A program made the position numbers and the translations under genes. From an uncultured Caryophanales bacterium (GTDB taxonomy: Bacteria; Bacillota_I; Bacilli_A; RFN20; CAG-288), in contig CASEGJ010000004.1 in NCBI GenBank assembly GCA_949287425.1, positions 389,727-453,726 on the forward strand: 64,000 nucleotides of DNA, written 5' to 3'. Under the pieces are notes generated by a model. The model was not told the origin of the DNA. It worked only from the letters and a program-made list of their open reading frames with translations, and did no database searches. Each line of letters begins with the position of its first letter. Position 1 is the first letter of the stretch. Positions 7,320-14,390 of this stretch are shown here, piece by piece.

Positions 7320-8614
7320 TGTCTTAAATATTTTGAGGAAATTGCAATTTTATTAGAGGGAGCACGTCGTGTAGGAAAGACGACAATTGCTACAAATTTT
7401 GCAAAAGAAAATTACAAATCCTGTATTTTTATAGATTTTTCTAACGTCTCTAAAAGTATTATTGATTTATTTGATGATTTGTCTAATTTAGATTTTTTCT
7501 TTTTAAAATTGCAGGCATTAACTTCGGTAAAACTATATGAAAGAGAATTTGCAATTATTTTTGATGAAATACAATTTTGTCCTAAAGCTAGACAAGCGAT
7601 AAAATATTTAGTTGGAGATGGTCGATATGACTATATCGAAACCGGATCATTAATAAGTATAAAGAAAAATGTTAAAGATATTCTAATTCCTTCAGAGGAA
7701 ATGAAGATTGATGTTTATCCTTTAGATTATGAAGAATTTTGTTGGGCTTGTAATATAGATTATTCAATATTTAAAGAAATTTTAAAATCTAATAAACCAT
7801 TAGGGAATTCAGTAAATAGAAAACTTATGAGAGATTTTAGACTTTATATGGCTATTGGAGGAATGCCACAGTCGATAGAAGCATTTTTAAACAAAAAAAC
7901 ATTTAACGAAATAGATGCAGTTAAAAAAGAAATAATTAACTTATACAAAGATGGTTTAGAAAGATTGATAATAGTGGTAGAATATCGATGATTTACGACG
8001 CAATTCCAAGCCAATTAGCGTTAAATAATAGAAAATTTTTATTAAGTAGAGCAGTGAATAAAAGACCAATAAATAAAGATTTAGAATTACTTTTTGATTT
8101 AATTGACTCAAAAACCGTATTAATTTGTTACAACGTAACTGAACCAAGTATCACACTTAATTTAACTAAGAATTTAAGTCGATTTAAATTGTATTTAAGC
8201 GATATAGGATTATTTACCACGATGCTATTTAATGATAAAAGCCTTATTGACGAGAATATTTATAACAAATTGCTAAGTGATAAATTAGATGCTAATTTGG
8301 GGTATTTATATGAAAATGCTTTAGCTCAAATTATAAAATCAAATGGCAGAGATTTATTTTATTATTCTTGGTATGAAAAAAATAACAAACATCCTTATGA
8401 AGTTGACTTCTTAATAAGTGATAAAAATAAAATAATCCCCATTGAGGTAAAATCAGGAAATATAAAGAGTCATAAATCATTAGATTTATTTGTTGAAAAG
8501 TATTCTCACATAATATCAAGGAAAATTTTATTTTCTCAAAAAGATATCTCCAATGATAAAATGATTGAAATTAAGCCGATTTATTTGTCTCCTTCATTAA
8601 TTAGTGATCTTTAA
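7320..8614 (+). pseudogene. DUF4143-type AAA ATPase, frameshifted and 5'-truncated
   Basis: Remnant of the AAA_14/DUF4143 family: ATPases of unknown role, sometimes associated with toxin-like or stress loci. The Walker A motif LLEGARRVGKTT (7350-7385), a Walker B-like AIIFDEIQF, and the C-terminal nuclease-like DUF4143 part with EVDFLI and IPIEVKSG are all visible. The open frame begins only after an in-frame stop at 7317-7319 with no ATG and lacks about 20-30 N-terminal residues. At about 7960 the frame breaks: adding one A to GAAAGATT would join LYKDGLE to KIDNSGRISMIYDAIPSQL, the expected family sequence. So one single-base deletion separates the parts 7320-7991 and 7988-8614. An assembly error in a short A run is possible. 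Confidence 0.85.
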
Positions 8615-9061: not shown

Positions 9062-9775
9062 ATGAAAATATCAGTGGTAATGATTTGTTACAATAGGGAA
9101 AAAACAATCTACAGCGCTCTTAGTTCTATTGCTAAACAATTGAATAATGATGATGAAATAATAGTAAGTGATGATAATTCTAGCGATCAGACAATAGATA
9201 TAGTTAAACAGCTTCAAAACGAATATCCTATTATTAAAATTTTTGAACACTCTAATTTAGGTATTGAAGAAAATATGAAGTTTGCTTTTTCTAAATGTCA
9301 AAATGAAATTGTTGTAATTGCTGATTCAGATGATATTTCTCTATTAGGGAGAATAGAAAAAATACGTTCTTGTTTTGAATCAAACTCCAAATTAGAGGTT
9401 ATATATCACAATGCTGAAATTATCGATGAAAATAATAATGTTACTTCTTTAAATTTCTTTGAGACTTTTAATCAAAAGTCTTCGTTGATAAATATGATGA
9501 TAAAAACGACGTTTTATGGAGCGTGCATGGCTTTTAAAACTTCATTTATTAATATGTATGCTAAAAACATTGTTGCTAATTCTATACCTTGGGATCGCTA
9601 TTTAGGTTTTATTGCTAAAGCTAGAAAAACTCTAATGTTTTTACCTGATGATAAATTGCTTCAATATAGACGTTGGCTAGATAACGCTTCAATAAAAAAG
9701 AAAAGCAGCTTGATTCAAAAATTCAAGGTCCGCTTTTCTTGGCTTAAGCTTTATATAAAATATCGCTTCAATTAA
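9062..9775 (+). CDS. Family 2 glycosyltransferase
   Basis: Inverting GT-A glycosyltransferase of 237 residues. The N-terminus is typical (SVVMICYNREKTIYSALSSI, residues 4-23), followed by the nucleotide-binding EIIVSDDNSSDQT (about 36-48) and the metal-binding ADSDD (about 88-92). At 237 residues it is shorter than most GT2 enzymes but has no visible break. It has no membrane segment, so it works in the cytoplasm or loosely at the membrane. The next gene, convergent and 14 bases away, is a sialyltransferase-like lipoprotein, so the two may belong to one surface-glycan locus. Substrate unknown. Confidence 0.9.
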   Translation: MKISVVMICYNREKTIYSALSSIAKQLNNDDEIIVSDDNSSDQTIDIVKQLQNEYPIIKIFEHSNLGIEENMKFAFSKCQNEIVVIADSDDISLLGRIEKIRSCFESNSKLEVIYHNAEIIDENNNVTSLNFFETFNQKSSLINMMIKTTFYGACMAFKTSFINMYAKNIVANSIPWDRYLGFIAKARKTLMFLPDDKLLQYRRWLDNASIKKKSSLIQKFKVRFSWLKLYIKYRFN

Positions 9776-12315: not shown

Positions 12316-12696
12316 ATGAAAACCGCTGCAAAAGTGTTTTTAATCTTAGGTATGGTTTCGGCTGTTTCTACGTTTTATTATACTTGGTTTTTTGGAATTA
12401 TTTATACGTTATTATCTCTATTTATTGGAATTATGACTTATAGAAAACTTAATACAGCTTCATCTAAGCATGAAATAATAGGTTGGGGTATTGCAAGCTT
12501 GATAATTGTTAATATAATTGCTGGAATTTTAATTTTGTGTTTGAAAGATTCTGATTTTAATAACAGCTATGAAACTACTTCAATATCTGATTTAGAAACA
12601 AAGCTTAATGAGCTTGATAAATTAAGAAAAGTTGGCACAATTACTGAAGATGAATATCAGGAATTAAGAAAGAAATTACTTGGAGGTGAAAAATAA
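12316..12696 (+). CDS. Small membrane protein with SHOCT tail (first of a pair)
   Basis: 126 residues. It starts MKTAAKVFLILGMVSAV and has three likely membrane helices (about 5-25, 28-45, 55-80). The C-terminal motif, about residues 93-122 (LETKLNELDKLRKVGTITEDEY then ELRKKLL), is a SHOCT domain, a short helical element often on membrane and secreted proteins. The downstream gene is a paralogue starting with the same MKTAAKVF and overlapping by one base (TAATG). The role is unknown; SHOCT may mediate oligomerisation. Confidence 0.82.
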   Translation: MKTAAKVFLILGMVSAVSTFYYTWFFGIIYTLLSLFIGIMTYRKLNTASSKHEIIGWGIASLIIVNIIAGILILCLKDSDFNNSYETTSISDLETKLNELDKLRKVGTITEDEYQELRKKLLGGEK

Positions 12697-13169
12697 TGAA
12701 AACTGCAGCTAAAGTCTTTATTGTTTTGTCTATTATATGTTTTTCAATAGCGCTGCTAATTTTAATAATTTCATTAGCAGTAATATTTGCTACTATACAA
12801 GATCCTAGCATTAATCAATCTGAAATTCAGATGGTAATTAACACTTATGTTGCATTTATAATTATTTTAAGCATTTTATTGATAGCTAGTATTGTTATTG
12901 CTGTTTTTACTTTTAAAGCTTTAAATAGAGGTATGAGTAAAAATCAAGCAATATTATATGGTTTGTTAAATTTACTTTTAGTCAATGTTATTTCAGGAAT
13001 ATTGATTTTAGTAATGGATACTGAAGAAGATGTAAATGGCATTTCTAAATCTAAAAATTTAAGTAGCGATTTAACCGAATTAAATAGCTTATATGAAAAA
13101 GGAATGATTACTGAAGAAGAATATAATGATTTAAAAAAGAAATTAATTGAGAAAAATATTTTAAAATAA
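12696..13169 (+). CDS. Small membrane protein with SHOCT tail (second of a pair)
   Basis: 157 residues, a paralogue of the gene just upstream. It has the identical start MKTAAKVF, three predicted membrane helices (about 8-35, 50-75, 86-110) and a C-terminal SHOCT domain (LNSLYEKGMITEEEYNDLKK). Its ATG overlaps the TAA of the first gene by one base, with GGAGGTG as ribosome site, so translation is coupled. Ratio control or a hetero-oligomer is a reasonable inference. Confidence 0.82.
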   Translation: MKTAAKVFIVLSIICFSIALLILIISLAVIFATIQDPSINQSEIQMVINTYVAFIIILSILLIASIVIAVFTFKALNRGMSKNQAILYGLLNLLLVNVISGILILVMDTEEDVNGISKSKNLSSDLTELNSLYEKGMITEEEYNDLKKKLIEKNILK

Positions 13170-13178
13170 CATTTTATT

Positions 13179-14390
13179 ATGCAAAAGCTGTTTCAAGATA
13201 TATTGGATAATTATCTTTTGTTGCCAAAGTTAGTTAGTAATTCTTCAGATGTTTACGATAAATTAACGAGGCTTTTACCTAATGAAATTAGCAAGATTTT
13301 AAATAGGAACGATTTAATAGTTAAAGGTTCTATTGGTCAAGGCGTTAAGTCATTTAACCCGTGGATTTCTATTTTAAATAAAAATATCGCTATTAGTACT
13401 CAAGATGGTTTATATATATGCTATCTATTTAGAAAAGATATGCGTGGCTTTTACCTTGTTTTGATGCAAGGAATCACTTATTTTACTAGTGCATATAAAT
13501 CTAACAAGTACAAAGCTGCTAAGTTAGTCGGTGATTATTTTTTAAAAGAAATTGCGGATTTACACCAATTTTCTAACAAGCCAATTGATTTAAATACTGA
13601 TTCTAACCGCGGAAAAGGGTATGAAAAAACTACTATAATTTCTAAATATTATCCTTCAAACAAATTTAGTGAAGATGAATTGATTCACGATTTAGAGACT
13701 CTTACAAATATATATGATGAGATAGTTAGCTATTTTTCATATTCTAATTATGAAGATATTGTTAAAGAAGTCCTCGCATATGAAGATAGTTATAACAATC
13801 CTAAATTTAACGTTGATAAAGCTAGTAAATTAATTAAAGATGTTTTAGATGAAAATGGGGTTTTTCCCAATGATTTTAATAGAAAATTAATTCAAGTTGT
13901 CCCTAAAATAGATAGAACTTACAAGTTTAGAAGATTGACAAATCCACTATTAAATAAAATAGATTATTTAAAGAAATGTAAAGAGGACCTCCGCGTTGGT
14001 TTATTAGGTGAAAAATTGATTCTTTCTTATGAAAAAGAAAGGTTAATTAAATCTAATTTAGCTAATTATGCCGATAAAATTGAATGGGTATCTTCTCGTT
14101 CAGATTCGTTTGGTTTTGATATAAAATCTTTCGATTTAATTGATTCTAAACCAACACCTATTCAAATAGAAGTAAAGTCAACTTCATGTAAATACGATAT
14201 AGAATTTCCAGTTTCTAAAAGTGAAGTTAATAAATCTAAAGAATTATCAAAAACTTACTTTGTTTATAGGTTATATAATATCAATTCAACAGATGTTAAA
14301 TTTTATCGAGTTAAAGGAGCGATAGAAGATAATTTTGAATTAGATCCAATTACATATTTAGCTAGATATAGAGGTCTTATTAATAAATAA
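13179..14390 (+). CDS. McrB N-terminal domain fused to DUF3883 nuclease-like domain
   Basis: 403 residues. The N-terminal part (about 1-190) matches the DUF3578/McrB_N fold that reads modified DNA in type IV restriction: VKGSIGQGVKSFNPWISIL (48-66), STQDGLYICYLFRKDMRGFYL and LMQGIT. The C-terminal part (about 265-390) is DUF3883 (NO VEIN type), a PD-(D/E)XK-like domain with GE (LLGEKLILSYE), GFDI (Asp314) and IEVKST (Glu331, Lys333). It has no McrB GTPase. Family knowledge suggests a modification-dependent restriction or DNA-targeting protein; activity is inference. It starts 9 bases after the SHOCT gene without a clear ribosome site and ends in a strong terminator. Confidence 0.82.
   Translation: MQKLFQDILDNYLLLPKLVSNSSDVYDKLTRLLPNEISKILNRNDLIVKGSIGQGVKSFNPWISILNKNIAISTQDGLYICYLFRKDMRGFYLVLMQGITYFTSAYKSNKYKAAKLVGDYFLKEIADLHQFSNKPIDLNTDSNRGKGYEKTTIISKYYPSNKFSEDELIHDLETLTNIYDEIVSYFSYSNYEDIVKEVLAYEDSYNNPKFNVDKASKLIKDVLDENGVFPNDFNRKLIQVVPKIDRTYKFRRLTNPLLNKIDYLKKCKEDLRVGLLGEKLILSYEKERLIKSNLANYADKIEWVSSRSDSFGFDIKSFDLIDSKPTPIQIEVKSTSCKYDIEFPVSKSEVNKSKELSKTYFVYRLYNINSTDVKFYRVKGAIEDNFELDPITYLARYRGLINK

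Follow-up and report, generated by a model that had tools for sequence, protein, structure and literature searches.

A one-chain MrcB_N-NOV_C protein of an uncultured Caryophanales bacterium is a predicted modification-dependent nuclease

The protein P0001, encoded in a window of 64,000 nucleotides (the whole stretch of DNA that was analysed) from an uncultured Caryophanales bacterium, joins a modified-base reader of the McrB type (MrcB_N) to a PD-(D/E)XK-like domain (NOV_C) on one chain. We consider it probable that P0001 is a type IV restriction endonuclease, directed at modified DNA and working without NTP. The reader is recognised by Pfam, predicted fold, a McrB-N profile match and a conserved base pocket, and the nuclease, with an intact putative active site, from sequence and model only. 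The MrcB_N-NOV_C architecture is already known, widespread and little tested, and P0001 adds a member to it.

Results

The open reading frame of P0001 is intact from ATG to stop and free of frameshifts (Table 1). Both domains exceeded the curated Pfam cut-offs (25 bits for MrcB_N and 22 bits for NOV_C): MrcB_N (PF12102, DUF3578) scored 137 bits (E 6.6e-40) and NOV_C (PF13020, DUF3883) 46 bits (E 4.5e-12). No AAA+ or GTPase domain was detected in the protein by Pfam, so that a fusion of the two domains lacking a GTPase, as proposed by the first-pass annotation, is borne out. A search of NCBIfam with P0001 gave zero matches. Among the PADLOC models, PDC-S36 matched residues 222-396 (E 3.3e-32; model positions 109-278 of 280), and PD-T4-1 matched residues 102-396, not over its full length (E 1e-12). 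Membership of P0001 in PD-T4-1 was rejected, as a true member (L070) matches the model with E 1.8e-88 and the N-terminal part of P0001 is MrcB_N.

Table 1. Features of the P0001 gene and its surroundings in the window
Feature	Position	Strand	Remark
MrcB_N-NOV_C fusion gene (P0001)	13179..14390	+	403 aa; predicted single-protein modification-dependent nuclease
MrcB_N/DUF3578 modified-base reader domain, residues 17-183	13227..13727	+	Pfam and predicted structure
Predicted flipped-base pocket W62, Y79, L83	13362..13427	+	Profile alignment to McrB and conservation
Low-confidence linker joining the two domains, residues 204-265	13788..13973	+	pLDDT <50
NOV_C/DUF3883 PD-(D/E)XK-like nuclease domain, residues 277-376	14007..14306	+	Pfam and predicted fold
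Putative active-site residues E278, D314, E331, K333	14010..14177	+	Invariance across relatives
Two SHOCT-domain membrane proteins	12316..13169 (12316-12696, 12696-13169)	+	Directly upstream of the P0001 gene
Glycosyltransferase-type ORF	9062-9775		Farther upstream of the P0001 gene

AlphaFold2 yielded a full-protein model of moderate quality (pLDDT 69, pTM 0.51) with a disordered linker. The alignments used for structure prediction held only seven sequences, because viral-contig scans returned no relatives, whether the query was P0001 or the Listeria, Lactobacillus or Staphylococcus protein. With VIA-align, residues 1-192 of the model matched the N-terminal domain of E. coli McrB (Z 11.1, 144 aligned residues, 3.3 A), while residues ~263-387 of the full-protein model resembled the SPARDA nuclease, Hjc, I-Ssp6803I and HinP1I (Z 8.0-9.8). 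When the C-terminal domain was modelled alone, the prediction was better than that of the full protein (pLDDT 83, pTM 0.75). Its top matches were the SPARDA nuclease (Z 9.9), I-Ssp6803I (8.5), Hjc (8.4) and HinP1I (8.3), followed by the Eco15I N-domain, SwaI, DpnI and EcoRV, and the first 14 matches (Z 9.9 to ~7) were nuclease folds. Foldseek E-values were weak, the best being 4.7e-3 for the whole protein and 2.7e-2 for the C-terminal domain. A phmmer search of the single P0001 sequence against the PDB gave no match, and a profile of the C-terminal domain found no convincing sequence relative there; the nuclease assignment therefore draws on Pfam, conserved residues and fold. In the model, a long helix bearing E278 is followed by a first strand that starts with D314 and by a second that carries E331-x-K333, and this modelled order of elements is the usual one of PD-(D/E)XK enzymes. 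Structure prediction, by which the first-pass annotation could have been refuted, did not refute it: the predicted C-terminal domain adopts the PD-(D/E)XK fold, and its key residues sit on the elements where they are expected.

The four putative active-site residues are invariant in an alignment of 11 sequences comprising P0001 and ten relatives that are 34-57% identical to it; Asp314, Glu331 and Lys333, already picked out from the sequence in the first pass, were found at exactly these positions. All four residues are unchanged also in distant relatives from Listeria, Lactobacillus, Staphylococcus and a Vibrio phage, and they are invariant across seven NOV_C domains, four of which have other N-termini.

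In the reader domain, the McrB-N profile match (3SSC, E 0.0019) pairs McrB residue W49, which we take to line the pocket, with W62, and further Y64 with Y79, L68 with L83 and Y41 with Q54. The three residues aligned with the flipped-base pocket (W62, Y79, L83) are kept in all close relatives of the 11-sequence alignment, and the G-x-G...PW motif around the pocket is conserved. In the distant relatives listed above, W62 and L83 are kept and Y79 varies, the position being Asn or Asp in the Listeria and Loigolactobacillus proteins. In McrB, Y64 and L68 contact the methyl group, and the non-conserved Y41 occupies the space vacated by the flipped base; the substitutions Y41A and Y41Q reduce binding, and the pocket does not accommodate a glucosylated base (PMC3874153).

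The distribution of P0001 is patchy, with a match in none of four same-genus genomes and in 16 of 98 relatives. Order-wide, 39 of 279 genomes were matched (E 1e-10), ~20 of them with the two-domain protein and the remainder with NOV_C (or MrcB_N) in other contexts. Another family contains relatives with ~56-58% identity, a pattern suggestive of lateral transfer. In the same-genus genomes, the glycerol kinase homologue (49-53% identical) lies in a different neighbourhood and no empty site could be demonstrated.

In plasmid and phage records, the pair of MrcB_N and NOV_C was found in Listeria, Limosilactobacillus, Loigolactobacillus, Staphylococcus aureus and a Vibrio phage, and Pfam confirmed both domains for the Listeria, Staphylococcus and Vibrio phage proteins as well as for one viral contig. 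The novelty that the first-pass annotation had implied for this pair is therefore lost: the two-domain protein is found widely, and its gene has probably been catalogued before as putatively type IV. On a Limosilactobacillus reuteri plasmid (L022:4162-5262), DUF3578 and DUF3883 are annotated as two adjacent genes, representing a split gene or a frameshift. The Listeria copy is flanked by a PTS operon and a PLP aminotransferase, and we read its site as the lmo0301-lmo0305 immigration control region. This region carries an 'mcrB-like type IV' gene in 540 of 872 L. monocytogenes strains (61.9%; PMC10059834). From the location, not from a named sequence, we infer that this gene encodes the MrcB_N-NOV_C protein.

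Other copies also lie in surroundings of a defence type. The Loigolactobacillus plasmid copy is part of an R-M cluster, where it adjoins an HsdS-type gene and an Mrr-like type IV fragment; the viral-contig copy adjoins a predicted HNH nuclease, and further copies lie near type I R-M or SNF2-helicase genes. Together with the Listeria site, these settings are in line with the assumption that the domain pair belongs to defence. A PADLOC survey found 150 families near 18 homologues and 79 in control regions taken from these genomes, a difference that is suggestive only, since the control held a Wadjet locus and generic matches and a single protein was often matched by several families.

Within the window, P0001 has the neighbours described earlier, namely SHOCT-domain membrane proteins directly upstream and a glycosyltransferase-type ORF beyond, and no recognised defence gene is found among the immediate neighbours of P0001. 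Nothing indicates that the SHOCT proteins are part of the system, and the gene lists read for the homologues showed no recognisable SHOCT-domain membrane protein next to them. The same accessory stretch contains an apparently degraded ATPase gene (window 7341-8614), which extends over the overlapping ORFs 7479-7991 and 7988-8614.

NOV_C is combined with a variety of N-terminal regions. The PD-T4-1 member L070 matches its model over nearly the full length and contains NOV_C according to Pfam, and by these matches PD-T4-1 ends in a NOV_C domain. The PD-T4 systems come from a selection against T4, and their ability to lower plaquing was confirmed (PMC9519451); DUF3883 has been called a novel REase domain (PMC3710099). 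In a Vibrio phage, NOV_C is fused to DUF3427, another restriction-associated domain. NUDIX-NOV_C proteins of 457-466 aa, with an N-terminal region lacking assignment, were found at L099:3316-4686 and likewise in L100, L101 and L103-L105, and a NOV_C protein of the PDC-S36 type occurs on resistance plasmids. One such protein of 378 aa (L169:4308-5444) lies beside ISCfr1, IS26 and resistance genes. More than 1,000 plasmid records, mostly enterobacterial, match P0001.

C5 methyltransferases are present in 9 of 20 carriers of the two-domain protein and in 88 of the 259 genomes elsewhere (Fisher p 0.34). They are not depleted, and the idea that carriers avoid C5 methyltransferases was rejected, as the carriers are at the background rate. 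A simple attack on any 5mC-containing DNA is consequently unlikely, and P0001 probably has a more restricted target than 5mC in general. In the host genome itself no C5 cytosine methyltransferase was matched, and reading the ORF list by eye revealed none next to the P0001 gene. The host genome assembly, which is ~94% complete, contains neither McrC (PF10117) nor a second MrcB_N. The lack of matches to McrC and to C5 methyltransferases in the host genome fits a modification-dependent reading.

Discussion

P0001 shares its reader fold with the N-terminal domain of E. coli McrB (PDB 3SSC, 6GCD), including the counterparts of the pocket residues W49, Y64 and L68. In contrast to McrBC, no AAA+ GTPase is joined to the reader and no McrC partner is present; instead, the nuclease is located on the reader's own chain. 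The Listeria monocytogenes homologue WP_014600457 (L019), encoded between lmo0301- and lmo0305-type flanks, has the same two domains, both above the Pfam cut-offs, with 28-29% identity to P0001 and Asn in place of the pocket Tyr. PD-T4-1 and PDC-S36, which are single proteins in PADLOC, share the C-terminal NOV_C with P0001, whereas their N-terminal part differs and gives no MrcB_N match. The EVE-HNH enzyme VcaM4I, the SRA-HNH enzyme TagI and the GIY-YIG enzyme CMoRE likewise combine a modified-base reader and a nuclease on one chain; they belong to other reader and nuclease families and their activity has been studied, whereas P0001 is known from sequence and model (PMC7897488, PMC6212794, PMC12923530). 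For the MrcB_N-NOV_C architecture, no activity data were found in the open-licence literature.

We propose that the N-terminal domain would flip and inspect a base in the manner of E. coli McrB-N and would accept a small modification, for example 5mC, 5hmC or 4mC. The C-terminal domain, held on the flexible linker, would then cut the bound phage or plasmid DNA nearby through a PD-(D/E)XK active site formed by E278, D314, E331 and K333. It would probably act as a dimer or at two sites; a double-strand break probably requires two copies. The first-pass idea of a one-protein modification-dependent restriction factor is partly supported, by the predicted fold and by the defence-type settings of the relatives, and its implied novelty is not upheld. 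If active, P0001 would be a small one-chain enzyme with a McrB reader, suited to cutting or mapping modified cytosine without GTP. Activity would also assign a function to the widespread NOV_C/DUF3883 domain, and would probably explain the 'mcrB-like' gene of ~62% of the surveyed Listeria monocytogenes strains.

Several observations sit less easily with a type IV enzyme. McrB Tyr41 corresponds to Gln54 in P0001, and Y41Q weakens binding by McrB (PMC3874153); Tyr79 is replaced in the Listeria and Loigolactobacillus relatives, and the Foldseek E-values are weak. P0001 could instead be a defence nuclease whose McrB-like domain senses a cue other than methyl- or hydroxymethylcytosine, such as another modified base, a DNA structure or a specific sequence, and it would then not be type IV in the McrBC sense. 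The substitutions at the Y41 and Y79 positions favour this explanation, as do the undepleted C5 methyltransferases of the carriers, one of which is encoded ~2 kb away in L077, and the PD-T4-1 and PDC-S36 type proteins, which have NOV_C without MrcB_N. We nevertheless regard it as fairly unlikely, given that W62, L83 and the G-x-G...PW motif are conserved and that the nearest solved folds are those of McrB-N bound to modified cytosine DNA.

Dependence on a partner, for instance a MazG-like/SLFN-g3 helicase module encoded at another genomic site, would mean that P0001 is not a one-protein, NTP-independent enzyme. SLFN-g3 helicase and MazG-like genes do adjoin NOV_C genes in several relatives (L001, L083, L099, L105), and the host genome has a MazG-SLFN pair on another contig. 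The module is, however, absent from most loci, the annotation around the Listeria, Staphylococcus and Vibrio phage copies names no such partner, and other fused reader-nuclease enzymes (Mrr and PvuRts1I in the table of PMC3874153) work without NTP, all of which makes a partner improbable. It is still harder to regard P0001 as a dead or non-defensive DNA-binding protein, with a NOV_C domain that has lost its activity or has a role in some other DNA transaction. Broken relatives do exist, the copy in G081 being split in two frames and that in L014 frameshifted, and the window gene adjoins unrelated membrane proteins, but the window ORF is intact and the putative catalytic residues are invariant, so that we give this explanation hardly any credence. 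The plant NO VEIN protein, from which the name of the NOV_C domain derives, is not known as a restriction factor.

Beyond the type IV reading of P0001, NOV_C genes show a possible link to nucleotide metabolism. A 106-aa MazG-like protein, which resembles mammalian dCTP pyrophosphatase 1 (E 3.9e-17), is encoded no more than 5 kb from a NOV_C gene at 11 of 35 loci, in several at a distance of 5-78 bp, and is absent from 186 kb of control sequence. Order-wide, 9 of the 24 genomes containing both genes have them within 5 kb (binomial p ~1e-12 at an assumed chance rate of 1%), in loci that are phylogenetically non-independent and partly near-duplicates. A NUDIX domain is found inside the NOV_C protein in six loci and directly upstream in three. 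Loci where NUDIX and the dCTP-pyrophosphatase-like MazG are fused to a NOV_C nuclease or lie next to it include L001:2522-6223, L083, L085, L099, L105, L091 and L093, and an SLFN-g3 helicase often joins them.

DCTPP1 hydrolyses 5-methyl and 5-formyl dCTP in vitro (PMC7162842). NOV_C nucleases with exchangeable N-terminal readers might be coupled to NUDIX/MazG enzymes that destroy modified dNTPs, a pool-cleaning form of restriction of which the window protein, with neither a NUDIX nor a MazG gene adjacent, would be the stand-alone form. By this scheme, host DNA would never bear the target mark of the nuclease; alternatively, phage-made modified dNTPs would be removed as a second line. If functional, the link would bear on the question of how a cell with a nuclease against modified DNA avoids marking its own. 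We hold such a coupling to be rather doubtful. The same MazG pairs with SLFN-g3 helicases in 18 of 30 such loci, and only 2 of them have a NOV_C gene in their 1.5-kb flanks, so that shared defence islands could explain the proximity of MazG and NOV_C. In the host genome, the MazG-like gene beside an SLFN-g3 helicase is located at G000:C1:42477-44665 (L136).
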